Of a stretch of DNA of 64,000 bases, positions 34,201 through 61,200 are shown piece after piece; positions within the stretch are counted from its first letter, which is position 1; each line of letters opens with the position of its first letter. A program made the position numbers and the translations under genes. The notes below the pieces were generated by a model, which worked only from the letters and a program-made list of their open reading frames with translations, did not search any database and had not been told where the DNA came from. The DNA is from Owenia fusiformis (lineage: Eukaryota > Annelida > Polychaeta > Sabellida > Oweniidae): NCBI GenBank assembly GCA_903813345.2, contig CAIIXF020000011.1, positions 23,862,166 through 23,926,165 of the forward strand. The letters are read 5' to 3'.

Positions 34201-37200
34201 AAAATAATATCAAAAGTGCATTTTGAGGAGCCCATTCTAGCAATTCTCTCTTGAACAGAGTTTCGTAACCTGACTTTTAAGTTGTACGAGTACATGTATC
34301 ATTTTATGACCTAAGTTGGTAAATGAGACAGTCTACATAATCTAGTAATATAAACCAGCAAAATGCCAGTATACAGTATATTGAAAAATACTTCCAAAGC
34401 AGGGGTCCAATGGCCATAACACATCAGTCTCAACAAGGCACAGGACGTGAACGAGATCACACCATCAAATAGGCAGACACTATGAACCAGGAAAACTGTT
34501 CTCCTATTATGTTAACAAATTTCAAGAACAAGAAAACAAGATGGCCGCCCAAAAGTTAATCAGCTCTAGTACTTGATATCCTCTATCATTTGTGTAAATT
34601 TGAAGGAAATCCGATGAGCGCTTTTCCTGAAATGGCGATGACAAGATTTTTCGAAAAACCTTCAAAATGGCCACCAGAAAACAAGATGGCCACCCAAAAG
34701 TTAATCAGCTCTAGTACTAGATATCCTCTATCATAATTTGAAGGAAATCCGATGAGCGGATTTTCTGAAATGGCGATGACAAGATTTTTCGAAAAAATCT
34801 TCAAAAAGGTTGCCAGAAAACAAGATGGCCGCCCAAAAGTTAATCAGCTCTAGTACTTGATATCCTCTATCATTTGTGTATAAATTTGAAGGAAATCCGA
34901 TGAGCGGTTTTCCTGAAATGGCGATGACAAGATTTTTCGAAAAATCTTCAAAATGGCTGCCAGAAAACAAGATGGCCGCCCAAAAGTTAATCAGCTCTAG
35001 TACTTGATATCCTTTATCATTTGTGTAAATTTGAAGGAAATCCGATGAGCGGTTTTCCTGAAATGGCGATGACAAGATTTTTCGAAAAACCTTCAAAATA
35101 GCCGCCAGAAAACAAGATGGCCACCCAAAAGTTAATCAGCTCTAGTAATTCATATGCTCTATCATCTCTGCGAATTTGGAGAAAATCTGATGAGCAGTTT
35201 TCCTTAAACGGCGATGACAAAAAGCGGGACGATCACGATCACAACCACGACCACGATCACGACCACGATCACGATCACGACCAGTATGACGACTATATCC
35301 CACCGATGGTGTGATAAAAATCTAAACTAACTTCAGCAACCATTACTAAGCTATTGCCTTTATTTATTTTTAAGCTAAAAATATGTATACCCTTCAAAAC
35401 AGGTTCTCATCCAAGAACCTCGATAATGCTTTGGCTGCTCATTACCTCTAATTAATTGTAGTAAGATTTAAAAAATCATCCTTTTTTATCTCACCTTTAT
35501 AATAAGAACCTCATCAATGCTCAATGCCTCTTGTCCATGCCCCTCACTCCCATCTCCTTCATCCCTCTGAGAAGGACCATGAATATCCACAAGTACCTTT
35601 AACTCAGCACGGCGGAAAAATGTTGCATGGTTCTTTCCAAGTAGACAATCCAACAGTTTTGCTATTGGGTACGATATTATAAATGTTAATCCCATAAGCA
35701 GGTAGACAAGTCTGAAATTAAATAAAATTCATTCTTAAAGAAGTCAATTTCTCAGTCGTAATGAAGTTTTTGCCATGCCTGTATTATAACCACCAGCCGA
35801 AATAGGTTTACTGAATTTGCTTGGACCTTGACCTTTCGAAATATGTTTATTTACAATATTGGATGTCATGTTAAACTATTTTGTGATTTCCATATCTACC
35901 TATATCTGATATTATCTTCACTAGGCCTACTGCATCAAGTGTTAAGTTTATGAACATTTAAATTCAGTTATAAAGTGATTAAACTGTATTAGACCTCCAA
36001 TAATCACAATATCATTGCCAATATGTAAGCTATGTAGGTGATAGCGATTACAACCAGAACAACGGCAACGCCAAAGCGTAGCGAATCCCATCGAACATTT
36101 TTCAAAAACAAAATCGCTCCGCTACTTTTCGAGTTTTAGTAAAATAAGTTAAAATGGCCACCATTTTTCAAAATGTCCGCCATTTTTCAAAATGGCCGCC
36201 TTCTACCAAAAGTGTCATTAGACAGTGTGCCATGCTTATAGTATTCACATACCAAATATGAACAAAATCGCTCCACTACTTTTCGAGTTACAGCAAAAAT
36301 CGTAAAATAACGAGTAAAGGCCACCATTTTTCAAGATGGCTGCCATGTGCTTTTTTAATATCTACATTTCTAGCTTTATTAATGTCCTATATAATTTTTT
36401 TTACATTTAAAACATATTGCTATTACAGTTTTACATATTGCATCTAAATTACTGTAAAATCGGCACTACAATGGCCGCCATTTTTAAATGAGCGGCCATT
36501 TTGAAAATCGGCTTTTGAGCAGAACTTCTACCCCCCATAGGGTATATGTGTACAAAATATGAATAAAATCGGGCCAACGGTATTTGAGTAATTGCCCGGA
36601 CGGACGTACGTACAGATGTACGTACGTACGTACGGACGGACGGACGGACGGAGGGAGGGAGGCGTTCCCTATATCCCTCCGAACTTCGTTCGATGGGATA
36701 ATGAACTGAAGTGCAAACTTACTTTTAATTCTGTTAGATGAAATAAAACTAATACACCATCTAGGCTATATAGACAGGGTTCTGTGTTCAAGGTATAAAT
36801 GTAATAACTTTTTATACTCAATGCTCACATAATGATTGCTTTAAAGATAATTTCTTCACTTAATATTCATTGCATCGTAGAAGTTGGGGATATATATTTG
36901 CTAGAAATAAGTAAGATATTTCTAACTTACGGACTTAGATTAGCTCCGATTGCAAGGCCATACCTCGTGCATAATGCTTGCGGAAAAACTCTGAAATATA
37001 AAATGAGTGTCTGCATATACAAGTAACAAGTAAAAATAAGCCTGTCATAGAATAATGACATTTTGTACTTAAAAAATCCTATCTCTTGAAAGTGGTTAAA
37101 CATTGACAAATACTACTTGGCGCTAATATTTATCAATAAAAACGGTTAAAATGGTTAAAATGTCACCATCATATAAACATCTATCTGATAAACAACAAAA

Positions 37201-40200
37201 CCTGAATAGGTAAATGAAACTTACTCTCCAAATAGTAAAACAGCTGATACAGAGACAACAATGGCTGTAACGGGGTTGGAAATCTTGTCTAAAAACAATG
37301 GCATTGACTCTACTGCCGCTGCGTTGGCAAGAAGCAATGTCACCAGTAGCAGATGGTGGCGTTGTACTAATGGGAGAATTCTGGCGGCATACTTTCTTTC
37401 TTGAGGGGTACCACTTCCCATTAAGACCCGTATATTTGTTGGGTCCAAAGATAGCAGTCCCATTGTAAGACCAGACATCAGCCCTGAAAGTATACAGCAA
37501 TCAGGAATTTTGGTTATAAAAACTATATATAATAAATAACCTAAATTCTTTACATTAAACATGGAACCATTGCAGTGTCAAAAAGTTCATACTCTTTGAT
37601 AAAAATTCAAAGAGCTTTTTATATTGTGGCCTATTAATTTTTAAACAGCTCAACAACCCACATCCTACCTTCTTTTACCACAAAGTTTGCTTAAATCATT
37701 CATTCATTTGATCACTGGCATTCATGATTTGATTTGCAAATATATTCAAGATAGTTATACAAGATATAGTAAAAGGTCCCATGTAAAGAAAAAAAAAACA
37801 TCTGGGTTATTTATAGTCTCACCTAACTACCAGCGCCAAGTGGTAGTAGGTAGTTGTAGTTCAACCACCAGGTGGCTAACTACAGTCAGTAATGTATTTG
37901 GACTTGTGATGCTTGGGTTAAATACTCTCTCAGGAAATCAAATAAATGAAACAAATAGAAAATATATTAACAGATTCTTGATGTTTATTTAGCTTTAGCA
38001 AGTCGAGAAGAGTTTTATTTCTCTTGCAAAATTAAATTTGCTCCGAGTGATGTCACATCAGGTTACCATAGTAACCAGGAAATGAACCAATCAAATTGTT
38101 AAAGCCTTATTAAAAAATTAACTCAATAACGTTTGGGGAACATCAGTTTCAAGATGATTGGTCCAGTAGTATTGGCAACACCTTTGACCCTTGATAGTAA
38201 CCCTATATTTTGAAAAAGTCTAAAACAAATTTCATAATGATACTTTACCTTCATGGGTCCTTTATTTTTTCATATTGCTATTAAAAATTTCATTGGTTAG
38301 ATGAGACAGGTGCTAATAATTTGAAAAAGTTTTGAAGAATAAAGATATACCTTATACACTGGATATTATTTGTGTTTGGGTAAGTAAAATTGCATAATTC
38401 CTCAGCCTAACATAATCTATTGGGACATTGGTCCTGTGTCAATACTACAACACTCAATTTTGACATAATATGAATATTAAATAGAAAATTTGAAATTTTG
38501 TATTTGTTAAATATAAATTAGAAGACATTCAAGTTGATATTCAACTCAGTTAAGATAATATTCAATGCGTATTGTGTACAAGTGTTATCAATTGTGTATA
38601 CTCATTGGTAGGTTCCAATCCACAAACTATGAGTTTGAGCTTAATTTATTAGGTCAAAGTTTAAAATTTCCTGCATATTTTAACTATTTTAATATTGTTT
38701 TACTGTATTAATTTTTTGCAAAGTACTATTTTGATAACACAAAGATTACCAGAATTACTGAGAATAAAATAAAACTTTATTACAGAGAATATTTTGGGTT
38801 GTCAAATATCTTGAGATATTATCCTGAAATAAAACAACATATTAAATGAAAGTTAAAAATTAACTCATAGTCAATGTAATTGTAAGAATTTCAAAGGATT
38901 GTCTAGTGGGTGGGGGTAGGATGATCAATTCAATCATCAACCCCATGGCATGATCTCATTTGGAAAGTTGTTTTACACGCAATTTTTGAAATACAAGATC
39001 TTTTTACATCGAATAATATTTGGTAAGTAAAATTCATTTTGGATTTACAGTGTACCTGTTTGTCTTTAATTTGGCACTACTTAATTTGCTGTTTTTTGGG
39101 ATATTAGACATTATTAGCATCTATTAAATTTGTGTTTTTTAATAGGAGGTTTATTTCATAGGATACAAGCAAATATACAATAAATAGGCAGGGTTGGGGC
39201 AAATCGCCTTTCGGCATTTCATGTCCCCATATAAAAAATTTACAATAGACAACATAGGTATGCAAGATTCAAATAGCTAAAAGAATCTGTCACTATAAAT
39301 AAGGTATAAATCCAATGTATGATCATGTGTTAAATTCTTAATGAAATAATGAAGGTTATAACTGATTCCATACTTATTTTGAAATAAAATCAACCCAAGA
39401 ATATGTTTTCAGGCAATTCCAAGAGTGTATCATTTCTTTGCCAAATTGTGTACTTTGCTTTTAATCATCATTTTTCTGAGGTTTAAGAATATATTCACAT
39501 TTAATATTCTAGATATCAAGATTTATTCATGCCTGGAGGCACTCTAATCTCATATTCATTGGATGCCATCAAATGTGACCTGTTTTTTGTACCATGCTGT
39601 GTGTGTTTTTCACTTACTTGATGTATTGAGGTGGCCTATGTATTTGAATGGTTCTTTGCTTCCACAGGCCTAAGCCACTCTTATTTATGCTTCAATATAA
39701 ACATTATTACCAAGGCTACAATCACACTACCCTACCACGTGACCACGTTTAAAAGGGAAACAGGGTACAGCTAAGTTGCAAATGGAGGACGTGGGTTTAA
39801 TTCCATATTTCTGAACGTAAAATACATTTTACATTTATTTCTAGTGTTCTACAAGACATAGAATTGATTCATCAAGCAGTTTGTAGAATATTGTCGGCAA
39901 AAATCCACTATAGGCAAAGATAGATAATAGTGGGCTCATTGAAGCAAAACTCGAATGCAATACACGATACATTTCAGTAAATCTATCGACGTACAGGGAG
40001 CATGTAAGTTTCCCTTCGAAAATGTTACATTGAAATGTAACAAAAACCCAGTTAATTGTTATTTAAACTTTGTGTCATCGTGTATATGTGGATACGTTTT
40101 CCAGTATGTTATTTAACTGTTTTTTTGTGAATCAATTGTTTTTCTAAAATCTTAAAATGCATAAAAAGTCGTCCCAGAAATGTAAGGCAAAACATTGTGA

Positions 40201-43200
40201 AACATTTTTCCTCTTGTCCCAAAGAGGATAATGTTTGTTTCGAGGTGTCTTGTGATGAGCGTTTCGTGATTAGATGCAAAATCACTGGAGCAGATACCAT
40301 CCAAAAACATCCGACATTCAACATGTCATATAAGACTACATCAATCTGGTATTAGTTTTTTTACAATAAAAGAGAAATACGACGTCATATCAGCGCTATA
40401 GCAAATCGTGAAGAATAAAATGCTCTCAAGTCGTGGCATGATAGTATTTTGAACAAAATATTTTATATGATAGTCTTCGACTATCATATAACTTGGAACA
40501 TGGACTTCACTATTGCACCACTGAAGTTCAGCGAATAGCAATATTGACTCACTCCGAGCACCAAACGTATTAACCTTTTGACTAAGCAGTCGATATACTC
40601 AATAGCGACCTGGTTGAAAGCCAAAAAATTCGCGCATGCGCAATCGAGGTAGGGTAGTGTGACAATTAAGTGATGAAAATAGTGTGGCTTAGGCCTGCGG
40701 AAGCACCGTAAAGGTTTAGTTGAACAAAATTTATAGTACATAGTAAGGGCAGCCATTTTGGATATTGACTATACTAGCGCTGCAAATGTATAAAGTGGAT
40801 TGAGAATATAACTATGCAATTGATAATAACTTAAGGGAAATTGGTTATCTGCCTAGAATGACAAGATAAGGCTGTCCCAAGGTTTTGCAGGAGCATTATC
40901 CCCAGCTCATTTGAAATTTTGAACTAGACAACAGCAACGCCAAACCATAGCAAATCCCATTGAACAGCCATGGCTGGAATATTTACAAACAAAGTATATA
41001 GCAAAAAAGGCAGCCATTTTTCAAAATGGACACATTCTACCAAAAGTGTCATTAGACATTGTGCCATGCTTGTGGTATTCACATACTACTTTTCGAGTTA
41101 TAGTAAATAAATATGTTAAAATGGTGGCCATTTTTCAAAATGGCTGCCTTCTACCAAAAGTGTCATTAGACAGTGTGCCATGCTTATAGTATTCACATAC
41201 CAAATATGAACAAAATTACTCCACTACTTTTCGAGTTATAGTAAAATATGTTAAAATGGCGGCCATTTTTCAAAATGGCCGTCTTCTACCAAAAGTGTCA
41301 TTAGACAGTGTGCCATGCTTATAGTATTCACATACCAAATATGAACAAAATCGCTCTACTTCTTTTCGAGTTACAGTAAAATATGTTAAAATGGCGGCCA
41401 TTTTTCGTGTTACAGCAAAAATAGTAAAATAACGAGTAAAGGCCGCCATTTTTCAAGATGGCTGCCATGTGCTTCTTTAACATCTACATTTCTAGCTTTA
41501 ATAAAGCAGATATGAAATGGTATTTTTGACCTAAAGGAATCAATATAATTTTTTGATAAATGTATATGGACATGTTTTCTCATCAGTATTGTGAAAATTA
41601 TTTCACTCTAATGATCGTTATAGCTGCTTAATAAGCAATATTGCAATAGGTTGTGACGTTATTGGCCCCCACGTGATCTCTCACTGGTCCCCACGTGGCC
41701 CATTTTGGTCCATTAAATCATGACGTCATAATATGAAGATGTTTTGTTATTTGTTTACACAACAATCATATGGTTGCCGTGACATTGTGATTACCAAGGA
41801 ACCAATAAATTTAAATAAACTATATATTATGTATGACGTTACTAATCACGTGGGGGCCAATCTCATTTAATTGATCAGTTAATTTTATTACGTTATTTAT
41901 AACCATTAACAGTTATCTAACATTTATTTCATAATGGCTATAGCAAGAACTGCAATGAAGAAAATGCATTTTTGTAGCTGCAAGTTGAGAAAACCTATTT
42001 CAGTTGTCCTTTAATGTCCTATATAATTTTTTTTACATTTAAAACATATTGCTTTTAGTTTTACATATTGCACCTAAATTACTGTAAAATCGGCACTAAA
42101 ATGGCCACCATTTTTAAATGAGCGACCATTTTGAAAATCGGCTCTAAAGTCGATACTTGATGATATCCACATGCTAAGTTAATGGAACCAAATAAAATTA
42201 TAAAAACGAAAAAATGAAAGCCTGACCTCCTTTTGAAAATCAAAGGTTAAGGTCAAAATTCTTTTCATTCTTTATCATATTTTCACATTTAAATTTTGTA
42301 AATGATGATTTTGCACACAAGAATCTTTTATTTTCAGATATGCACTGACTTGACCTTAACAATGTCACTATGACCTCAATAACACTTAGGATGCACCTGA
42401 ACACTATGCTATACATTTGTAATTAACTCCTCACTAAACACCATATTTTATGTCATAATGGTTATGAATGAGCTGGGGGCATTATTATATACTGTACACC
42501 CGGTACGCCCGAAATTCGCGACGATTAATTTTCACGATTTTAATCTCAGGTATATTTGCAAGTCAAACGTTGTCTAATTGAAAAGTCAGATGTGAACTTC
42601 TGAGAACTTGTAGATAATTTTGAAAAAATTAGTACCGTGGGTACTGGGCTCACATGGTGTTGCTCAAAAGTGAAAATAAAAAAAACGAATATAATTTTTT
42701 CGGATTTTATGTGACAAAATTATTTCATACAACTACTCTTTACAAAGACATGGCTTTTTACAATGCAGGACACCTGAACTTATTTGTAAAGCTAGGAAAT
42801 GGGCCAAAAGTGAATTTCCTGAGACAAAAATGGAGGCCATTTTGAAAATAGGCGAGATTTTGAAGCAGGAGTCACAGGTTTTTTTTCTTTATTGATGTTG
42901 AACAAAAATATTTTAAATCGGGAATCCTATCTACAGAGGATTTAAAAAGAGCCAAGTGTTGACAGAAAGAGGTTTTAAAACTTGCCACTATTTTGGACTG
43001 ACTGAGAGACAGATGGACAAATCAATGTTAACTAAAATGACTAAAAATAAAAAAACGGATATAATATTTTGCCGATTTTTTGTAACAAAATTACTTCATA
43101 CAACTACTCTTTACAGTGAAATGGCTTTTTACAATGCAGGACAGCTGAAATTATTTGTTAAGCTAGGAAATGGGCCAAAAGTGAATTTTGCGAGACAAGA

Positions 43201-46200
43201 ATGGCGACCATTTTGAAAATAGGCGAGCTTTTGAACCAAGAGTCATAGGAGAGTTTTTTGTATTGATGTTGAACAAAATTAACTTAAAACAGGAATCCTA
43301 TCGACAGAGGGTTTAAGGCAAATGGTCCAAAAGTGGATTTTGCGAGACAGATGGACAAATCAATGCTAACTAAAATGGCTGAAAATAAAAAAAATGGATA
43401 TAATTTTTTGCTGATTTTTCATAACAAAATTATTTCATACATCTACTCTTTACATTGACATGGATTTTTACAATGTAGGACACTTGAAATTATTTGTGAA
43501 CCTAGGAAATAGGTCAAAAGTGAATTTCGCGAGACAAAAATGGCGGCCATTTTGAAAATAGGTGAGCTTTTGAACCAGGAGCCATAGGGGAGTTTTCTGT
43601 ATTGATGTTGAACAGAAATAACTTAAAACAGGAATCCTATCGACAGAGGTTTTAAAACTGCCACTGATGTTGACAGAAAAGTGGATTTTGCGAATCAGAT
43701 GGACAAATCAATGTTAACTAAAATGGCTGAAAATAAAAAAATGGATATACTTTTTCGCTGATTTTTTGTAACAAAATTATTTCATATATCTACTCTTTAC
43801 ATTGACATGGACTTTTACAATGTAGGACACCTGAAATTATTCGTAAAGCTAGGAAATGGGTCAAAAGTGAATTTCGCAAGACAAAAATGACGGCCATTTT
43901 GAAAATAGGCGAGCTTTTGAACCAGGAGTCATAGGGGAGTTTTCTGTATTGATGATGAACAGAAATAACTTAAAACAGGAATCCTATCGACAGAGGTTTT
44001 AAAACGTGCCACTATTGTTGACGGACAGACAGACGGATGGACGGACGGACGGACGGACGGACAGACGGACGGACAGACAGACGGACAAGTGAGCGATTGC
44101 AAAAGCTCACCATGTGAGCTAAAAAGGTCATTTTGAAGCAAGTTGAAAAAAGACCAATATGACCTTTTTTTACCTTGAGAAGGCCGCTGAAGGTCAAATC
44201 TCAAATCTTAAGTCAGATTTGAACTTCTAATAGCTTGTAGATGATTTTGATAAAAAAATTGGTCAATTTGAAACAACTTGAAAAAAGACCTTTTTACCTT
44301 GAAAAGGTCACGGGGGTCAAATCTTAAATATAAAGTCAGATTTGAACTTCTGAAAACTTGTAGATTTTGAAAAAATTGAAATCAGTCTTAACAGTATTTG
44401 TTAAGTTGTTGGAAGTTGTGAGAAGTCAATTTGAGCCAAGTTGAAAAAAGACCTTTTGACCTTTTTTGACCTTGAGAAGGTCATTGAAGGTTAAATTTTA
44501 AGTCAGATTTGAATTTCTGATAACTTGTAAAAATGGTCAATGTGAAGCAACTTGAAAAAATACCTTTTTTGACCTTGAAAGGTCACTGAAGGTCAAATCT
44601 TCAATATAAAGTAGTCAGATTTGAACTTCTGAAAACTTGTAGAAGAAAAATTTGTAGAAAAATTGAAGTCAGTCAAAACAGTATTTGTTAAGTTAAATAT
44701 TTGTTGTAACAATTTGTTACAGAAGTGTTTAAAAGTTTCTGGAGAGCAACAAGTACAATTTGGGGAAACCACATTGGTCCAATTATGGGCATTTAATTGT
44801 GAGTTCAATATTAGGTCGACCCTAGCTCTGTTTAGATATATTTCTTGTGTTCAAGGTAAGTTAAGGGAAATAGTTGAAACTGTGGCTGGAAAATATTCTA
44901 CTTTTTATTTTTATTTTTAAAGAAGGTGAGGACTTAAGATCTGGCGAGACATTGTTCCATATTTGCATCATTTTGAAAATTGGTGATCTGTTTGGAAAAT
45001 TCACATGTATTATTTAGAGTATCTCAATGTTCTGACAATTTTATTTTTGAATGGAGTAAATATATCAGCTATATCTTGGGGAACTAGCCCATTGCAAACT
45101 TTGAACATAGTAATTTTGAAATGAAAATTCAAAATCTTCAAGTGCTTATTCAGTAATTTCTGTTTATTTTTTCTCACTACAATAGTTAAACAGATATTGG
45201 TAAGTAAAAATAGTATTCCAACAGACTCTCAATTCATTCCGTTTGTTCATTAGTGGCAAAATAAGATTTCCCGGGAAAAAACATGACGTCACGAACAGAA
45301 CCGGTTATGGATTTTAACGGCAATGCATTATGCAACTAAAGTGCCAAGTTAAAATTGTATATGTTATATTGTGTTCTGATTGGCCAGAAAGGAGTAACGC
45401 TTACAAAAATCATCTCATGGTTCAATGCCTTTTGATTACAAGATTTTAGACAGCTTGAGTTATGTAATACTATCAACTGAGCGTGTTTATTTTCTATATT
45501 GTGTTCTGACTGGCCAGAAAGTAATTCTGCATGACTAGCTATGTGAAAACACACCGCTTGGTCAGAAGCTCTAATTTAGGTATTATATTTTTTGTTTATC
45601 GGAGGAAAAAACATGGCTCATATGTAGTCATCTCTGAATCAATTCCTCACTTCATTGAATGCAGTTGCAATCAATTCAATAACACTTTATAAGCACGTTC
45701 AGAGATTATGAAGTCAAACAACATATTCAAAACACATTCTGTTCGTGATGTAATGATTTGCATTTGACATTGTGTTCCCGATTTTGACATCAAATTTCAC
45801 ATTTATAAAAATATTTACAAGAATGGTACCTGGTTTGACATGTTAGTGGTATTTACTTCATTTAGAATGTGTATAAACTGTATTTTGACCCCATGAGCAT
45901 TGAACAGACACTATAAATACTTTGAAACTATTGGAACTTGGCCGAGCTCCTGATACAATCTAATTTGGTGGTTTTTCCTAACCCTATTTGAGGTCACAGC
46001 ATTAGCCAACCTATTCTGCCAGGTGTTCCCGACATCTTCCCATCCAACCCAATTCAAGATACTCATTGACGGTGCTGTAAATTAACAATATCTTCAAATA
46101 TTTTTGAATTTAAATTGCCCTAATCATCTTGGTATATTTCTTATAACCGGAAGTGCAACGAACAAAAAACTTGTCAAACTCCCTGGGATTTTGGAGAGTA

Positions 46201-49200
46201 TTTAATTTGACGCTTTTTTAACCCTTGACAAATTAAAGACAGATACAGTATATAGTACAACCCTATTCCTAGTTGGATATTTTTCAAAATCATTGTTCAA
46301 CAGAAATGTGATACCAATTTAATATAATCCTGACAAAAGTCAAAACCTTCACACAATGTCTGATTATAAAACTTTCATTCAGCATAAGTAAACAATTGGA
46401 ACACGGTTGTTAAGAATATTTTCAATTCATCAATTGCTTTTATCAGATACATGTTATAGTTTATCGAGTTAGCTTTTTAGCTGCTACAGCACTAACATGA
46501 CACACACAAGCATCTACTTTTAGTTTTAACAAATAGTCCAGCCACAATATTTGCTTTGTGGATAATCTATCCCCTGGTCCTTTAACCTCCACTACTTTGA
46601 ATATGTCATCTGTTGTACTCCACACAACTAAATCGGGCACTCCAGAACAACTGTTACGATAGTCTCTGGCAAGACGCTCACATATCCCAGCAAGCTTTGG
46701 CCCACCTATACATTTCACAAGTCCTAATATGTGTGGTAGGTCATTGAAAAGTTCCCAGTTTACACCAGCGCAAAGCTCTCCTTGGTGAGCTTCCCAGCAT
46801 TTGGTGATCATTTCCTGAAGTTGTTCAATTGAAGCTTCTTTGATAGTTTTGATTTGTGTGTCGAACTCTGATTTGCGTTGAGCATAAAAGCAATCAGAGT
46901 GGAAATCCAAAGGGCTTGTTTGATAAGGGTTGCGGAACACGTCAGGGAGGTCATCTTTGAATATGATATCCCAATTGAGGAGTCCAAATAGTGTACAGAA
47001 TGTTGAACCTTCACCATGCAAACCTTGGTCATATCCTTGATCTTTGTAGTGTTCTATAGATAGGTCTTCCACGCTACATAGTGTCACTTCATCACAGTTA
47101 GAATCAGCCCCAGTATTTGGTCTTATGAATACAGTTTTAGAACCAGGGGCTGAATGCGGCAATAATCGCCCTGATATTGTCTCCTTAGGGGCATCAATGA
47201 CATCGTCATGGTGAATTTCTAATAGATGACACTTCAGTTTCTTATGGCTTGGTGAGTTGCAGATTCGTTCTGCACGTTGGAATAATGCCAGTCGTCTACC
47301 TGTTCTGACATAGACATCATCGAGTCCGGATTTTATGACGTCTAGAGATTTTTGAGGTTGTTTAAGATGTTGCTCTAGGTTGAGTGCTAGACGGTCATAC
47401 CAGCGGCCTCGATATCGCAAACAATACACTTCCTGTGATAAGAGTACTTCAAGTTGTTGAACGGCCATTTCATACTGGCGCAATTTCTGTAGTAACTCCA
47501 CACCTTGTGTCATTAGGCGTGTGTATATAGATGTTGCTGTGAAACACCTGAGATATATCGGCAATGCCTTATCAGAGTCCAGCAGAGCTTGATCATTACT
47601 ATATGCCTGATACACAACCCTTGTGTCTTCATATATCTCTTTAGCAGTGTCAAAGTCATTATTGCCCATAGCTTGAAGCATTTCATAATGTTGAGTCAAT
47701 GCGATGGTGAACTTCAAAAACTGTTCTCGGTATTTAAATATAATAGCATCCCTTTGAATTTTATACTTAGGATAGACGATTTTTCCCATTTGTGACATCA
47801 GCATTTGAAACAGTTGTTGCTGGCCACCATTTGGATCATCATCATCGAAAGCAGTATCTGATAGGTTGAACAACATGAGAAAGCAGGTGAAGACTTCACG
47901 TGTGTTTGACACCAACTTGTAGCAGTCCTCTATATATGATTTTGCCCGTTTGAAAACCATTCCACTTGTACCAGATTTTGATGCACCAAACATTGCAGAA
48001 ATACTTGGTTTCTTACAGTGGCTTAAAATGGCATTCAGCAACTGATGTTTCTGTTTGTTGGTTGTCGTTATATGTAAAGATTTGGCGAGACTTTTCAAAT
48101 CTGGTGAACTAAGTAATTTCAAAACAGATTCAACATCATCTAACTTGTCATTTCCAATGAGAAATCCACTCTGGACAAGTTCATTCAAGTATCCTCTACA
48201 ATCTCCAATTTCATCATAATTGATTTTGTCAACTGTAATCCATTTATACTTTCTCTGAAAAAGCCGTATATAAAGTTTTTGTGCACCATCAGAGAGTCTG
48301 TAAAAGTCAGCTACTGTTTCCTTCTCATCAGCATTGAAAAGGTTACTGTCCTCCTCATTTTCAAGCACTGTGTTGATGATGGTTTTAAAGTTTTCCCAGT
48401 AGTATGGATTTTTGTATTTAACTCTAGGATCTTCATTGCTTTCATTAATGTTCTCATTTACAGTTTCTGCTTCAAATTCCTTTTCGCTGGGTTCATCATT
48501 ACTAGTTACTTCATTATAAAATGTAACTTGGGGTTTGCTTGTTTCAACATTATCACTGGCTTCTTCCTTTTCAACATGTGAATTATCATTGTTTTTTAAA
48601 GGCTCTGTTTCCTTAATTTTCTTTTGAGGCTTCTCATTTTTTGACTCTGCAGTTTCACTAGACTTCCTCTTCTTATTTCCAGGTGTCAAGGACTTGTTTT
48701 CCCTATCAGTATCATCATCTATACATGCTTTTTCTATATCATTATTAGTAGTACATTTGGATAGCTTCTCCCATTTAATTTTCTCCTCGGGAGGTTCGAT
48801 ATATCCATCATTGATGTGTCGCTGTCGTTGTGCAGCAAACATACCCAAAATGCTCTTAGACTTAGGCACATCCTTCTTTTTATGTTTGCTCATTTTCAAT
48901 TAGTTTAATATAGTCCCACTAGCTGAACAGTTTGTTGTTGTAGTGTTTAGTATACAGATAATTATTAACTTCAAAGTTAATTATATGTGGTATAATGTTT
49001 AATCAATGATTGACATTGACGTCATATCCAAAATATGAAGCTCATGAAAAAACATCTTGTAATGTCTTTTTTCATTATCACACAGTACTTGTGAAATTTG
49101 ATTGTCTGTTATTGCCTGCTTGTTAGATGTTTCTGGATAAGGGACTGACCATCTGATTCACCCTAAAATCACAGAAAATGACAAGTCCATTAATCTTAAT

Positions 49201-52200
49201 TTTACTTAATCTTAATATTATATTTTACTAATTGATCAAAATTAATAATTAATTAAAGATATGTTGCTTTTAAAAACATTGTATATATTAAGAAATTACC
49301 TAAGTATCAAGTGCAATAAAATGTACAAATTAGCTAAAATGGGTTTGATCATTTTGAGAAATAGACTTGTCTTTTTCAGTCAAGGCCACATTATGACATT
49401 CTATTCTATCCTTGCACACAAAAAATATAGCACTTTTATCTGGAAAAATATAAATTCTGTATTTGTGCAAGAGTACAAGCATATTCCCCACAGTCTCTCC
49501 TTGTATCTGCCTCATGCTTCCTGCTTTTGATTGCATTTTTGTTGTCAATCAAACAGTCATGCCTCTCTCAGGCAAAAGCTTAGAAAGTAGAAGTGAATGT
49601 GAATGTCCTTATATATAGTTCAATATTGATGTGAAAGGTAAAACATTTACAATATTTATGACACTCTGACCTACTTGCAATTGAGAGACAAAATGATGTG
49701 AAATAACCTTTTTGGTAGTTTGAAATAATTAAGATGGTAAACAATTTACCTGAAAGTCAAGAAGTGCATGTGGATGTTTGATATTGACGTGAAAAGTAAC
49801 TTTCAGAATAAAGGTACTAAGGGGTATAAATTGATTTGATTTGATTGGTCGATATTAGTGGTAAAAGGATATGCTTGGACATACTAGACAAACAATTAGT
49901 AGCCTTGTTTAAAAGAGGAAGAAAATTTTTGTAATGAATGGCAATTACAGAATTACAGTCCAATTAGACTTGAAGTTAAAAATTCTTCACTCCTTGAAGA
50001 CTACCCCATGGAAAATCAATAGAATACTGACAATGGGCCTTTAAAAAGCTATGCGGGCTACTAGGGACATATCATAGGCATTTTCTATAGATCAAATGAA
50101 AGCTCTAGATATACTGAATAAAATGAAATAAAGCATTTGAAAATAAGACAAGGGGATCCAGTTATTGGCTTCTGAACATCTATGGTCAAGGGAAAATGGC
50201 TTTTCCATGTTAAATTCCCATTAGGATTTTCCAGATTTTTGTCATTTTTGACACTTTAATTGCTTCTAGAAATTGAAGTTTTTGTCCAATGGTGACCACT
50301 GACCTTTTTTTGGTAACCTTTTTTGATGCAGATTTAACAGTATATTATCACAGATGTGCATACTCCCAACTAAAAAATATTTTTAAGTAAGTTTTTTTAA
50401 ATAAAATGGCGGCCATTTGAATTTTGACGTATTAATACAGAAATCTCATTTGTATAAATAACCCAAACTTTGGTCTTTCTTGTAGAGTAGAATGATAGCT
50501 TTAAAATAATATCTAACATAGATCACATTTGTAAATATAACTACATGTATGATTTTTCATTAATTATTGTCAAGTGTTGTGATTTTCATATATTTTTCTG
50601 AAAAGTGACCAGACTTTAAGGATTTAATAAAATAGTAATATTCTTTTTTGATTGGACTCCTTAAAGACAGGGTGTACTGTTTGTTAGGAATTTCGATGCA
50701 ATCCTCAATAGAGTCACATGATGATACTTTTCAAACATGAAGAGTGTGAATAATACTTTATTCATAAAATGTATAAAAAATTACAAAATTCAGTGACAGT
50801 AGGTCACTGAAATTTCTCTCTGAACTTTTTGTTTTTTTTATACATTTTATAAAAAAATATTCTTCACACTCTTTTCTAGGTACATTGGTGCACTATTTGT
50901 GCAAAACTGAAAGATGTAGACAATGTGAGGAACGAGGACTTTGTATTTGAAAAATACTGCTTTTCGCGATTGTGGCAAAATCGCGAAAATTAATCTTCAC
51001 GGAATTGTAAATTAAATCCCTGTGGATTTGTAAAATGTTTTATTACCTGGAACTCCATTGGCATTTCATGTTTTGTAAAACGTTTGTCCAGTGTCGTTCT
51101 GCAATGATTTCCATTAAATATATCAAATAAACCAAAAAATGAAGATGTAATAGAAGTAAAGGTGCAGCGTGCCATTGGCAAAGATCTAGAAGTAATTGTA
51201 AATCTAATCCAAATATGACATTAGGTAGATTACTTACTCTACATGAAGTTACTTTATTTACAGAGTTTGAGGATTCAGAGAATAATGAGATTTTAAATGA
51301 TGGCATCCACAAAATTTAATAGCCGCAAAATTGTGTTTTCTCAGAATTCGTGAAATTAAAAACTTGCGAGCACAGTAATAATACTAATAATAATGCTAAT
51401 AATACAGTAACATGTGACTCAATAACCTAGATGCGAGTAGAAACAATCTTGATTTACGTCATTAAAAATTCTCAATTCAGTCAAACTGATGTCATATTTG
51501 GAATCTACATGTAAAATTACACCTAGGAATGTGGTTTTGAAAAGAGTTAATCATCTTTGAAAAATTAATTTTCTTTAGAAATGTGACTTCTAGGTCGGGG
51601 AGATTCCCCATAGACCCCATGCTGTAAAACCACAAAAAGTGAAATATCTTTTCTTGTGTTGGGCAGATAATATTTTGCTTTACTGGACATATTTTAATTT
51701 GTATAACTATCACATACACAAGGGTAATATGAAAAGTGAACCACTAAAACTGATGCATATTCAAGTTTAAGGGAATTTTGTAATACCCTGCCATGTTATT
51801 TCCCCCGAATCAGCCACCTGGTGGCGAAACTGGTAACTACCTACTCGCATCTGAGTAATTGAGGATTGCATCAAAATTCCGAATATGCAATAACATAAAA
51901 CACAAATAATCAGTTTTGCTGATTCATCATCATGTTAGAAATGGAGTCAGAAGGATATTGGAGGTAAATAATTATTTATAAATCTTAAATTTCAACAGCA
52001 AATTGGGAAAAATCTGGCAAGGATCTGAAACTGCATACCATAGAGTATTTATAATATTTATAAATGATGTACCACCATGGGCCATATGGAAGAAATTTTA
52101 GTTTACTCTTTTAATTTGAGGTCTAGATTCTATCAGCCATAATTTTTTAGATTTCTTATTTTTAGGTTGAACTGGTGATTAATCTATAAAGTAAATTTTA

Positions 52201-55200
52201 ACAAACTGGTCTGTAGACTGAAACTACATATACATTTAGCTTAGATTTTGATCATCTAGTAAATCTAGTATAGCCTTTATAAACTAAATGTATACATTTT
52301 TTTAATTGCAAGAATGACAGTCATGGTGATGAAATATGTGTAACAAACTAGCCGATTTGTGGTAGTGTGAGGGCTAGGTTACTTTGGGATTTCCTGGTAC
52401 ACGTTAAATGTACTTGTGTTTTACAGCAATTACAACACGACAAACAATATAGATTTATTTCACATATATTATAACATTAATTATACACAAATAAATTCAA
52501 AATGTCCAAATAAACTTGTTGTTGTTAATTATATACGTCCACTCTCTGGTACAATAATAGTTCAAAGTAGAATTCTATTCAAAGTTCACAGTGGCCAAAC
52601 TGAATCCCAATGATGACTGTAATGCTGGCCTAGGTGCAAGGGTTACTTGAGGTTCCTGGTTAGTAGTGTCCCTTTCAGTCCTCATACACACACGGATGCA
52701 TATAATCGCGATCAAACAGGTCACTATGAATAAAACACTGACTAGGACCAAGGCGAAGAAAGGAACATCCAATTCCATGAATTAGATCTATGAAGGCTGG
52801 ACACCACTTCTGTAAGCTCTATGCTGGGGATAGCTTCACCCTCTTGAAGTGCTGTCCAGTCCTGTAGATTCCCACGCAGCAAATCGACTACTTCTTCAGA
52901 TAGCAGAAAACTTCTAAGTTTTGTAGATCCAAAATATCAGCTAAGTTTTGCAGTTAGCAAAAACGACTAAGTTTTGTAGTTCCAAAAATTCCTCTAATAA
53001 GCCAATAAATTCATCCAGGTTGTCACATCAATGGCTTATAATCATCGATGGCTACTTCATCAGGCTAAGAGAAGTCAATAGTCAATAGTCAATGGTCAGT
53101 CATCCCATGTAGCAGATCGACTATGTTCTTCAGATAGCAGAAAACTTCTAAGTTTTGTAGATCCAAAATATCAGCTAAGTTTTGCAGTTAGCAAAAACGA
53201 CTAAGTTTTGTAGTTCCAAAAATTCCTCTAATAAGCCAATAAATTCATCCAGGTTGTCACATCGATGGCTTATAATCATCAATGGCTACTTCATCAGGCT
53301 AAGAGAAGTCAATAGTCAATAGTCAATGGTCAGTCATCCCATGTAGCAGATCGACTATGTTCTTCAGATAGCAGAAAACTTCTAAGTTTTGTAGATCCAA
53401 AAAATCAGCTAAGTTTTGCAGTTAGCAAAAACGACTAAGTTTTGTAGTTCCAAAAATTCCTCTAATAAGCCAATAAATTCATCCAGGTTGTCACATAAAT
53501 GACTTATAATCATCAATGGCTACTTCATCAGGCTAAGAGAAGTCAATAGTCAATGGTCAGTCATCCCATGTAGCAGATCGACTATGTTCTTCAGATAGCA
53601 GAAAACTTCTAAGTTTTGTAGATCGAAAAAATCAGCTAAGTTTTGCAGTTAGCAAAAATGACTAAGTTTTGTAGTTCCAAAAATTCCTCTAATAAGCCAA
53701 TAAATTCATCCAGGTTGTCACATCAATGGCTTATAATCATCAATGGCTACTTCATCAGGCTAAGAGAAGTCAATAGTCAATAGTCAATGGTCAGTCATCC
53801 CATGTAGCAGATCGACTATGTTCTTCAGATAGCAGAAAACTTCTAAGTTTTGTAGATCCAAAAAATCAGCTAAGTTTTGCAGTTAGCAAAAACGACTAAG
53901 TTTTGTAGTTCCAAAAATTCCTCTAATAAGCCAATAAATTCATCCAGGTTGTCACATCAATGGCTTATAATCATCAATGGCTACTTCATCAGGCTAAGAG
54001 AAGTCAATAGTCAATAGTCAATGGTCAGTCATCCCATGTAGCAGATCGACTATGTTCTTCAGATAGCAGAAAACTTCTAAGTTTTGTAGATCGAAAAAAT
54101 CAGCTAAGTTTTGCAGTTAGCAAAAATGACTAAGTTTTGTAGTTCCAGAAAACTGCCTAAGTTTTGTAGTTCCAAAAATCCCGTAAATCAGAGCCACATA
54201 GTCCCGTTCGTCAAAAGTCAATGTGCTATCTGCTCCAACATCAGTGGCTTATAATCATCTAGGACTATCGGGCTAATAGTCAGCGAAAAACTTCCTAAGT
54301 TTTGTAGTTCCAGAAAACTTCCTAAGTTTTGTAGTTCCAATTGCTTCCCTCAATAAGCCAGTTTATTCATCTAGATTCCAACATCAGTGGCTTATAATCA
54401 TCTAAGACTATTCCCTCGGGCTAATAGTCAGCGAAAAACTTCCTAAGTTTTGTAGTTCCAAGAATCATCTAAGTTTTGCAGTTAGCAAAAACGACAAAGT
54501 TTTGTAGTTCCAAAACTCCCGAATATCAGAGCCACATAGTCCCGTTCGTCAAAGGTCAGTGTGTCAGAAGCCCCTGAGTCACGTCTGCCGCTGTATTTAT
54601 ACCCCAACATGTATGTAACATGTGTTTTGCACACGAAACTATCTGCCTAACCAATCATAGCTCACGAGCGGCTGATGCAATACCTGGCCAGTCACTGGAA
54701 TCCCAGGCAGGATATCACTAGTGCATAATTAATTAATATGATGCAATGATGACATAACTTTTGCAAAAAATTAGCTTCACCTAACAATCACGATCTCTGT
54801 TTTTTAACACAGAACAAACATATATCTTGTAATTAACTAGCTAGATTAAGATATAAACTAGATAAATATAACAAAAACCAATCATCATTGGCTCTAATTA
54901 TGGCGGAATTGCAAGGAAAAACGAGTTATTGAATGTAGGTCAACAGAGTTCTCTAATAGGAGGTGAGAAAATGCACACGAACGAAAGCAAAATAAATCTC
55001 CCAGAAAAGAGTAGTTTACACTATTCCCAGTACACCTAAAGAGTTCTATTCATAAATATAACTATATAAGCTCTCAATTGTGACTGGGAAACACTTTCCT
55101 ACTGTCAAAACTGTCTAAAGTGCTAAAAACGGCACTGGACTCCAAAAATAAAATTTTGAAAAATGAAAAATTCGTTACACTCCTCCCAACCAATGATTTT

Positions 55201-58200
55201 GGTGTTAACAACACCAAGCCTAAGTTATAAAAAAAATAACGAATTTTTCCTAACTAGCTATTTCTTACACTTATAACTTATCTGGTTTATTCAACCCCGG
55301 GGTTATCTATCAGTCTTACATGGTGCGATGAGAGTTATCTACAATAAACTCATTAAACTGGTTTTTCTCAAACCTTAACACTAAATATCTAACTACTGAA
55401 TGCCTAACTACTATGTACAGTTATCTTCGCAAGTTTAACTCGCAGCTAAGTGCTACTCATACGTATCACTAAATGTCCTTGACAACCTTCATAATTCTCA
55501 AGGCTGTGCTCTCGAATTAGTGTTCATGGGAGGCAAACAGGATGGTTCCTCCAATCATAATCTGTGTCACATCTCTGTCGGGGTCCTGAGTACCTTGATC
55601 TATAGACTTTTGCTAGTGGGACCCTACTGGTACGAGTACTGGACGAACCTGGACTATTCTGTCCAAAATCTCTCAGGCTTCGAGGAAATTCACTAAGTCT
55701 ACTTCTCTGGCCATATCTCTTTTCTTTGACTGGATGACTACTTACTACATCCATAGTCACTTTCCGAGATGTTATTTTGTATGTGTCTCCAACACGTACC
55801 TCAGCATCTCTAGAACTTCCTGATCTCATGGTCATCTTACACTGACCATAGTCTAATATGGCTCTTGAAGCAGCAAGGTAATCAGTACCTAAGATGCCAT
55901 CGAATTCAATATCTGCCACCACTACTTTTAAGTTCTCAACATGGCCACCAATGTTTATTCCAACACGTGCAACACCTTTTTGACTTAATGGTTCCCCACC
56001 AGCTTGTATAATGACTCTATTGGATGGCTCAAGTTTTGGCCTCTTAAGTTCAGGCATCTTTCGGTAGACCTCTGAGTTTATTATGGTACTAGCTGCCCCT
56101 GAATCAACTAGAAATGCAACATCTGTGTTGCAAACGGTTCCATGAGCCACTATCTTATTGGTGTGTTTAGAAGCCTTGACATCTTTACCCTGACGGGATA
56201 GAAACTCAACTGTGGCTACCTGGCTGTGACTCTCTTGGGCTTCCTTAGCCCGCTCTTCAGCGTGTTTTCTAGAGAAGCACTCAGCTATTCTATGTCCAGG
56301 CTTGTGGCAGTAAAAACATTCCATTCTCCTGAAAGCTGGCCTTGACATCTCAGGCTCAGGCTTGTTCTGTTTGGACACTAATTCCGTCATTTTCTCCATC
56401 AGAGTTTCGATCTTATTCTCCAGGGCCATTAATTTATTTTCATTCTTATCCTTGTCTTCAATGGCCATCACACGACTACACTTTGGTTTTTGTCCCTTCC
56501 TTATCCTTTCGGATTCCAGATAGGATTCTTCCTTAAGGGCTACTTCAATGGCCTGGTCCAAGGTATCACAATCCTTGGCATGTATCGCCCTCCGTATATC
56601 CTCCTCTAATATGGACTGTTCAAAACTTCGTCGGGCAAGTCGATCCTGAGCAGTACGACTCATCTCTGGATAAGCCAGTGCAGTGAGCCTCCTTATGTCC
56701 TGGCCAAGAGTTTGCAGAGTTTCCTTAGGCTTTCGAATCCTGCTGACTAACTCTGCCTCATAAACCTCGGCCTTGCCACCCGGACCAAATCTCTTTTCAA
56801 GAGCCAAGAGGAGTTGGTCATAAGTATAACCATGTTCCATTTCTAGAACAATTTCTTGAGCAGGGCCTCTAAGACTCGTGGCAAGAAAATTTCTCTTATC
56901 TTCTTCTGACCAATGGTTTAAATCACCACATATCTCAAAATAGGCCCTGTAATCTTGCCAAGGGGTGAATCCATTATATACATCTGGCTTAATCCTACTC
57001 TTACTAGATGACCCCAAGTTCTCCGATCCAAATTTATCACACAGTTTAGAGCACATCTGGATTAATTCTGTGGTTAAATTGGACTCTGAACTTCTATTTA
57101 CTGGTTCCTCTTTATGAGCTGCTGAGCTTGTTCCAAGACTAGAGGCCAACCCTAAGGAAGAAGGCTTAAAGTTCTCCCTCACTCCCTCCTGATTCAATAG
57201 ACATGGTTTGGAAGTAGTTGTTGGTATATTTCCGCGACCACCTGCACCCGGATCCTCATCCTCTAAGTTTTTAAGTCTCGGGTTTACGGCATCTGTACTG
57301 GAGTTGACTTTCCATTTGCTGGGCTTTATATGAATTCTCTCCTGCCTTTTCAAACTACATGGCTTCCTTGAACTCGCAGGCAAGGGATCAGGGTCAAAAG
57401 CAGGTTCAGACAATGGCTGAAACGGACCGGCATGATTCATCGACCCTATCTCAGGTTGCATACTACTACTGTGTAGTTTTTCCACGATGGACGTCTCTAT
57501 GGTCTGTTGAAAGTTTTTCATTTGTGTTTGCACTTCCTGTCTGTTGAATTCCACTCTCTGTGCAATCCTATTAATATTGTAGAGCTGAGCTTGTTGGGAC
57601 TCCACTACTGTTTCTGCTAAACGTTGCATTTGTTTTTTGCTGGTTTATCATTGTCTCACTTAACAGTTCAATTTTGGACTTAAGCTTACACTCCCTTATC
57701 CTTGAGTCAGGTTCCCTCCTAATTTCCTCACCCGGTCCTCCGAAGGACCTATCAGCTAAAGTGGAAGTGAGTGGGAACCTCTGTCTCCTTGGGGGTTCTC
57801 GTCTAGCCCCAGGTATCTGGTCGAATGGGGTTTTAGCATCTGTGAGGACAGCTCCGGTCAAATATCCAGAACTCAGTTGACCAGGTATCCACATTTTTTC
57901 AGTATCAGAATCAGAAGTGTCAACGCTTGTGCCAGGATAAGGAAATGCCCATTTCTTGGACCCTTTCTTTTTATCAATATTTTTCACATCTTGAACAGTC
58001 TCATCACCTGCTCCTGGATTATCTATATCCATTTTATCAGTCTTCAGAAAAACTGTTTTCTCTAGCTCACTATCTTCCCTAAGATTCATTGACACTCGAG
58101 GTGGAAGATCCGTCCTTTGTTCCATATTGTTATGTTGTATCACAAAGTCTGCAGTCACAATATCCCACCGCTGCCACCAGTGTAACAAACTAGCCGATTT

Positions 58201-61200
58201 GTGGTAGTGTGAGGGCTAGGTTACTTTGGGATTTCCTGGTACACGTTAAATGTACTTGTGTTTTACAGCAATTACAACACGACAAACAATATAGATTTAT
58301 TTCACATATATTATAACATTAATTATACACAAATAAATTCAAAATGTCCAAATAAACTTGTTGTTGTTAATTATATACGTCCACTCTCTGGTACAATAAT
58401 AGTTCAAAGTAGAATTCTATTCAAAGTTCACAGTGGCCAAACTGAATCCCAATGATGACTGTAATGCTGGCCTAGGTGCAAGGGTTACTTGAGGTTCCTG
58501 GTTAGTAGTGTCCCTTTCAGTCCTCATACACACACGGATGCATATAATCGCGATCAAACAGGTCACTATGAATAAAACACTGACTAGGACCAAGGCGAAG
58601 AAAGGAACATCCAATTCCATGAATTAGATCTATGAAGGCTGGACACCACTTCTGTAAGCTCTATGCTGGGGATAGCTTCACCCTCTTGAAGTGCTGTCCA
58701 GTCCTGTAGATTCCCACGCAGCAAATCGACTACTTCTTCAGATAGCAGAAAACTTCTAAGTTTTGTAGATCCAAAATATCAGCTAAGTTTTGCAGTTAGC
58801 AAAAACGACTAAGTTTTGTAGTTCCAAAAATTCCTCTAATAAGCCAATAAATTCATCCAGGTTGTCACATCAATGGCTTATAATCATCGATGGCTACTTC
58901 ATCAGGCTAAGAGAAGTCAATAGTCAATAGTCAATGGTCAGTCATCCCATGTAGCAGATCGACTATGTTCTTCAGATAGCAGAAAACTTCTAAGTTTTGT
59001 AGATCCAAAATATCAGCTAAGTTTTGCAGTTAGCAAAAACGACTAAGTTTTGTAGTTCCAAAAATTCCTCTAATAAGCCAATAAATTCATCCAGGTTGTC
59101 ACATCGATGGCTTATAATCATCAATGGCTACTTCATCAGGCTAAGAGAAGTCAATAGTCAATAGTCAATGGTCAGTCATCCCATGTAGCAGATCGACTAT
59201 GTTCTTCAGATAGCAGAAAACTTCTAAGTTTTGTAGATCCAAAAAATCAGCTAAGTTTTGCAGTTAGCAAAAACGACTAAGTTTTGTAGTTCCAAAAATT
59301 CCTCTAATAAGCCAATAAATTCATCCAGGTTGTCACATAAATGACTTATAATCATCAATGGCTACTTCATCAGGCTAAGAGAAGTCAATAGTCAATGGTC
59401 AGTCATCCCATGTAGCAGATCGACTATGTTCTTCAGATAGCAGAAAACTTCTAAGTTTTGTAGATCGAAAAAATCAGCTAAGTTTTGCAGTTAGCAAAAA
59501 TGACTAAGTTTTGTAGTTCCAAAAATTCCTCTAATAAGCCAATAAATTCATCCAGGTTGTCACATCAATGGCTTATAATCATCAATGGCTACTTCATCAG
59601 GCTAAGAGAAGTCAATAGTCAATAGTCAATGGTCAGTCATCCCATGTAGCAGATCGACTATGTTCTTCAGATAGCAGAAAACTTCTAAGTTTTGTAGATC
59701 CAAAAAATCAGCTAAGTTTTGCAGTTAGCAAAAACGACTAAGTTTTGTAGTTCCAAAAATTCCTCTAATAAGCCAATAAATTCATCCAGGTTGTCACATC
59801 AATGGCTTATAATCATCAATGGCTACTTCATCAGGCTAAGAGAAGTCAATAGTCAATAGTCAATGGTCAGTCATCCCATGTAGCAGATCGACTATGTTCT
59901 TCAGATAGCAGAAAACTTCTAAGTTTTGTAGATCGAAAAAATCAGCTAAGTTTTGCAGTTAGCAAAAATGACTAAGTTTTGTAGTTCCAGAAAACTGCCT
60001 AAGTTTTGTAGTTCCAAAAATCCCGTAAATCAGAGCCACATAGTCCCGTTCGTCAAAAGTCAATGTGCTATCTGCTCCAACATCAGTGGCTTATAATCAT
60101 CTAGGACTATCGGGCTAATAGTCAGCGAAAAACTTCCTAAGTTTTGTAGTTCCAGAAAACTTCCTAAGTTTTGTAGTTCCAATTGCTTCCCTCAATAAGC
60201 CAGTTTATTCATCTAGATTCCAACATCAGTGGCTTATAATCATCTAAGACTATTCCCTCGGGCTAATAGTCAGCGAAAAACTTCCTAAGTTTTGTAGTTC
60301 CAAGAATCATCTAAGTTTTGCAGTTAGCAAAAACGACAAAGTTTTGTAGTTCCAAAACTCCCGAATATCAGAGCCACATAGTCCCGTTCGTCAAAGGTCA
60401 GTGTGTCAGAAGCCCCTGAGTCACGTCTGCCGCTGTATTTATACCCCAACATGTATGTAACATGTGTTTTGCACACGAAACTATCTGCCTAACCAATCAT
60501 AGCTCACGAGCGGCTGATGCAATACCTGGCCAGTCACTGGAATCCCAGGCAGGATATCACTAGTGCATAATTAATTAATATGATGCAATGATGACATAAC
60601 TTTTGCAAAAAATTAGCTTCACCTAACAATCACGATCTCTGTTTTTTAACACAGAACAAACATATATCTTGTAATTAACTAGCTAGATTAAGATATAAAC
60701 TAGATAAATATAACAAAAACCAATCATCATTGGCTCTAATTATGGCGGAATTGCAAGGAAAAACGAGTTATTGAATGTAGGTCAACAGAGTTCTCTAATA
60801 GGAGGTGAGAAAATGCACACGAACGAAAGCAAAATAAATCTCCCAGAAAAGAGTAGTTTACACTATTCCCAGTACACCTAAAGAGTTCTATTCATAAATA
60901 TAACTATATAAGCTCTCAATTGTGACTGGGAAACACTTTCCTACTGTCAAAACTGTCTAAAGTGCTAAAAACGGCACTGGACTCCAAAAATAAAATTTTG
61001 AAAAATGAAAAATTCGTTACATATGAGATCTGAGATGAATCATTGGATCATCATCATCATAAAATCTAGATCTACATATTAGGTCTAGATCAAGCTATGT
61101 TCACAGAGAAGTAATTTATATTGTTTTACTAGACTATTACATTCGATAGCTAGGCTAGTACTTCAATAGTATAGACTAGATCTACAAGACTCGTGCTTTT

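Follow-up and report, generated by a model that had tools for sequence, protein, structure and literature searches.

How did a FAN1 gene without introns come to lie inside an intron of another gene in the annelid Owenia fusiformis, and what kind of FAN1 protein does it encode? Vertebrate FAN1 genes have many exons. We addressed these questions in a stretch of 64,000 bp of the Owenia genome on contig C11 (the window; all coordinates refer to it), and extended the search for FAN1 to the assembly of 498,259,871 bases (498 Mb) in 525 contigs to which the window belongs. A sequence-only reading of the window had proposed that the gene is a functional retrogene, and that crosslink repair in this species may depend on it.

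Results

The window contains a FAN1 reading frame with the following features.

46461..48893, minus strand, FAN1 coding sequence in a single exon, 810 aa, with its ATG at 48893 and its TAA ending at 46461
46491..46826, minus strand, VRR-NUC catalytic domain (Pfam match at residues 690-801), with PD...EVK from residue 753
48837..48854, minus strand, PIP-like motif SILGMF, residues 14-19, in which I15 and F19 are spaced like human I30 and F34

The frame runs for 810 codons on the minus strand without an internal stop or intron, as the sequence-only reading had stated, and none of 1000 base-shuffled versions stayed open. Pfam identifies FAN1_HTH (E 4.3e-14), Fan1_SAP (1.3e-11), FAN1_TPR (7.5e-48) and VRR_NUC (2.7e-30) in the product. 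The order HTH/SAP/TPR/VRR-NUC is the one expected for FAN1, and together with the presence of the PD...EVK catalytic residues it identifies the protein as a FAN1 nuclease. The top matches in PDB, which agree with this, are chains of human FAN1 (E 2.7e-172 over residues 162-807 and 2.8e-172 over residues 157-807). The motifs HGEGSTF and VPDLVVW... are both found in the 810-aa protein. In human FAN1 these motifs contain the catalytic residues, of which PMC5648898 names D960 and K977.

Could an upstream exon be spliced to this one, an arrangement that the sequence-only reading had given as evidence against a retrogene? An in-frame TAA at 48902-48900 lies two codons 5' of the ATG, and the interval contains no AG; an upstream coding exon could therefore join only by skipping the ATG at 48893. 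For that start codon an upstream coding exon is thus excluded. A non-coding 5' exon is possible.

The gene around FAN1 was rebuilt from the following predicted parts.

61262..61406, minus strand, host coding exon 1 (CNNM/DUF21-type), with phase-1 donor GTTGGT
37484..61261, minus strand, host intron 1, 23,778 bp, predicted from the exons and containing FAN1
37225..37483, minus strand, host exon 2, predicted from sequence
36931..36990, minus strand, host exon 3, predicted from sequence
35495..35711, minus strand, host exon 4, predicted from sequence
32821..32928, minus strand, host exon 5, predicted from sequence
31416..31632, minus strand, host exon 6, predicted from sequence

Judged by these exons, the host gene encodes a membrane protein of the CNNM/DUF21 type (E 5.2e-27 for Pfam CNNM). 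The six predicted exons join in frame; all are followed by a GT donor, and exons 2-6 are preceded by an AG acceptor. Without exon 1 the Pfam CNNM match scores 86.1 bits and begins at profile position 12; with it the score is 95.1 bits and the match begins at position 4, and the join between predicted exons 1 and 2 restores the beginning of the CNNM membrane domain. The exon 1 donor, GTTGGT, is weak, and a first-exon scan restricted to commoner donors missed the proposed exon and gave three others, two of them inside LTRs. There are 61 ATG-to-GT candidates in the phase required. The proposed exon 1 is second among them for its hydrophobic end (1.77) and is the only one, among the best 12 of the 61 listed, that resembles the start of CNNM by eye. 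The candidate ranked first (2.02), at 66926, was set aside as unlike the CNNM start, a judgment made by eye alone. The host gene probably has further exons at lower coordinates; one candidate is a CBS-like piece in 18215-18610 (a weak match, E 0.075). The host gene (31416-61406) may be nearer to plant-type DUF21 proteins than to vertebrate CNNM1-4. With the host exons in place, FAN1 lies wholly inside the predicted intron 1 and on the same strand, which bears out the earlier description of same-strand nesting in a 23.8-kb intron.

The same intron contains a young LTR element that is separate from FAN1.

52339..61021, minus strand, LTR element in host intron 1, with LTRs at 52339-55179 and 58181-61021

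Its two LTRs (2,841 bp each) differ at 0 positions and TATG flanks the element on both sides; because the LTRs are identical, the insertion is likely to be very recent. The element ends 240 bp from host exon 1. One of its frames matches aspartyl protease families and has a zinc knuckle by eye; of the three ORFs in the window that reach 150 aa, none is a polymerase frame. Within the LTRs are tandem arrays (52892-54120 and 58734-59962; unit of about 234 bp), and a 300-nt reference is matched five times in each LTR. Four consecutive copies of a 300-nt repeat, 76-89% like the reference copy, occur at 42632-43988, between FAN1 and host exon 2. A remnant at 5068-5292 matches PF01498, the helix-turn-helix of Tc3-type transposases, below its cut-off (E 1e-4).

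The window locus is the only detectable FAN1 in the assembly. The full FAN1 protein found one locus (one match from four scored candidates), as did VRR_NUC (two candidates scored) and FAN1_TPR, for which one locus was over the cut-off and a second match (E 1.95) was below it and at chance level. The sequence-only reading had suggested a whole-assembly search for a second, intron-bearing FAN1; with these three queries, neither a second, multi-exon gene nor a remnant of a parental one was found in the 498 Mb. As a control, the FANCD2 family gave 15 matches of 36-83 profile positions each, spread over 51 kb of C5 and extending, with gaps, from position 69 to position 1398 of a profile of 1418. 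Recovery of FANCD2 as 15 exon-sized pieces indicates that split genes are detectable in this assembly. FANCD2 and the host gene (at least six exons) are both cut into exons, so that at least these two genes are intron-rich. COX1 gave no match in the assembly (one candidate scored), and mitochondrial sequence at least seems to be absent. Pattern matches to FAN1 in contaminated viral contigs, 2 in one case and 10 in another, yielded no confirmed relative. The search for myotubularins listed 27 matches (46 candidates scored) on C1, C2, C6, C10 and C12, and none on C11. In vertebrates, FAN1 lies beside the myotubularin gene MTMR10. The lack of a myotubularin on C11 among the matches listed would fit a relocation of FAN1, and we give it little weight.

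Which parts of FAN1 does the Owenia protein retain outside the nuclease core? Its N-terminus is rich in lysine, and ILGMF at residues 15-19 fits, by pattern, the I-x3-F of a PIP motif. In human FAN1 the PIP motif (I30, F34) is directly N-terminal to a UBZ finger (C44, C47) that serves as the contact to ubiquitinated FANCD2 and PCNA, and PMC5648898 describes both as conserved from C. elegans to humans. No CxxC, and hence no UBZ finger of this kind, occurs anywhere in the 810 aa of Owenia FAN1. Likewise, a conserved SPYF motif at residues 126-129 is described as binding MLH1 in human FAN1 (PMC8424649), and the 810-aa protein contains no [SR]x[YF][YF]. A finger encoded nearby was also considered: in a six-frame scan of the window, which would miss a motif split by an intron, the sole UBZ4-like pattern is at 5073 on the plus strand, outside the intron that holds FAN1. 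For Arabidopsis FAN1, a domain search is reported to find no UBZ, although the same study proposes that a cryptic UBZ is present (PMC4402529). The UBZ finger is a usual feature of FAN1 in animals and does not define the family. Judged by these patterns, Owenia FAN1 keeps the core and a PIP-like motif, and the parts for docking to ubiquitin and MLH1 are absent.

Discussion

We conclude that the FAN1 of Owenia is probably a retrogene that has replaced its parent (a probability of about 0.7). A sole, intronless and intact FAN1 in the intron of an unrelated gene is best explained by retroposition of a FAN1 mRNA followed by loss of the intron-bearing parent. Homologues of FAN1 are multi-exon genes, with 15 exons given for Arabidopsis (PMC4402529), and the Owenia gene differs from them, as a retrogene would, in having no introns. 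An intronic position is common for retrocopies; in a survey of 62 animals, about 20% (18,468) of 84,483 retrocopies are reported to sit within introns (PMC5408686).

We infer the retroposition itself, the mechanism of insertion, the expression of the copy, the order of events and the biochemical consequence, as follows. In the germ line, transcripts of an ancestral multi-exon FAN1 would have been spliced, and a coding-complete mRNA would have been reverse-transcribed, probably in trans by the enzyme of a resident retroelement. The cDNA would then have been inserted into intron 1 of the CNNM/DUF21-type gene in the same orientation, and nearby regulatory sequence, intronic or associated with the host gene, may have given the copy its expression, after which the intron-bearing parent would have been lost. 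Loss of the UBZ finger and of the MLH1-binding motif could have come before or after retroposition. The surviving protein, a nuclease core with a PIP-like motif, would act as a PCNA-associated structure-specific nuclease without direct docking to ubiquitin or MLH1.

The flanks of the gene carry no scars of such an event. In the 1.5 kb 3' of FAN1, stretches of A are all shorter than 7, and no target-site duplication stands out from chance: the 800 nt upstream and the 1.5 kb downstream share exact repeats of at most 11 bp, a length that is equalled or exceeded in 117 of 200 first-order random versions. The earlier observation that there is no poly(A) relic or target duplication thus holds. Both marks fade as retrogenes age, and loss of introns in place would never leave them. 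Their absence could be compatible with an old copy. The retrogene proposed by the sequence-only reading therefore stands as the best reading of a sole, intronless and intact locus, but the step of retroposition leaves no mark in the flanks and is deduced from the locus as a whole.

The absence of scars above chance would suit the next explanation, that a nested, multi-exon FAN1 shed all of its introns in place by recombination with a full-length cDNA. It would also suit this explanation that the copy extends to the coding 5' end, where the PIP-like motif is near the start, as it is in human FAN1 (PMC5648898). However, every coding intron would have had to go (the gene has 15 exons in Arabidopsis; PMC4402529), while FANCD2 and the host gene remain split in the same genome, and the nested position would need a separate reason of its own. 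We consider intron loss in place unlikely. More improbable still is an old single-exon state, in which FAN1 has been intronless at this locus for a whole phylum or longer, the oddity is no peculiarity of Owenia, and retroposition was deep or never happened. Great age would account for the lack of scars, but the multi-exon genes of vertebrates and of Arabidopsis (15 exons in the latter; PMC4402529) make an intronless animal ancestor unlikely, and a deep retroposition merely moves the date. Finally, it is very improbable that a second, intron-bearing FAN1 is absent from the assembly and that the window copy is a redundant retrogene (which would itself be compatible with retroposition), because, even though the lack of a COX1 match suggests that mitochondrial sequence at least is absent, C11 alone is 37.3 Mb, the FANCD2 pieces run, with gaps, from profile position 69 to 1398 of 1418, and three FAN1 queries lead to the same single locus.

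Replacement of a parent by its retrogene is an established, uncommon type of event, and FAN1 is a fresh candidate case. The SYCP1 gene of amphioxus is similar in that it has a single coding exon and no other copy in the genome, and is multi-exon in most other animals. SYCP1 differs in lying beside the ParaHox cluster, where it co-opted a promoter shared with its neighbor, whereas Owenia FAN1 is intronic; in addition, expression of SYCP1 and its presence in three species are reported as demonstrated (PMC5803294), whereas Owenia FAN1 is described from the sequence of one genome. The amphioxus gene also has a 5' UTR that is spliced. The 25 human orphan retrogenes described in PMC5408686 are also similar, in that a retrocopy takes over once the parent is lost or has decayed, although those were recognized by comparison of species and the FAN1 case comes from a single genome. 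Retroduplication with loss of the parent is also described in tunicates (PMC5408686). A search of the literature for an intronless, retrogene or single-exon FAN1 gave no report on the subject, with the loosest matches judged by title, and none by title among the matches listed dealt with FAN1 gene structure in molluscs or annelids.

Owenia FAN1 is like human FAN1 in its HTH, SAP, TPR and VRR-NUC core and in having a PIP-like motif close to the N-terminus. The human protein differs in carrying a UBZ finger, the SPYF motif for MLH1 and a longer N-terminal region; the PDB match begins at residue 371 in human chain 9gy0_A and at residue 157 in Owenia FAN1. What might the loss of docking parts mean for the nuclease? 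In human cells, SPYF mutants are reported still to repair crosslinks (PMC8424649), and the PIP motif is described as dispensable for FAN1 foci after mitomycin C (PMC5648898). Thus, the effect of the docking losses in Owenia is not firmly predictable. We suggest only tentatively that the intronic retrocopy has wholly replaced FAN1 and, devoid of ubiquitin and MLH1 docking, may be coupled to PCNA and not to ubiquitinated FANCD2, with FANCD2 still present. The earlier proposal that crosslink repair depends on the retroposed copy is unsupported: the UBZ finger is missing, and other nucleases, including SLX1, MUS81-EME1 and XPF-ERCC1, are active in crosslink repair (PMC11061109). Drosophila is described as having no FAN1, and depletion of FAN1 in Xenopus as leaving crosslink repair unaffected (PMC4402529).

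The locus offers a candidate retrogene replacement of a conserved DNA-repair gene, with controls from the same genome. A natural FAN1 without the UBZ and MLH1 motifs would help to separate the core role of the nuclease from its routes of recruitment. In models of Huntington's disease, FAN1 is reported to stabilize CAG repeats (PMC8424649), and natural variants of its docking parts may therefore be of some use.
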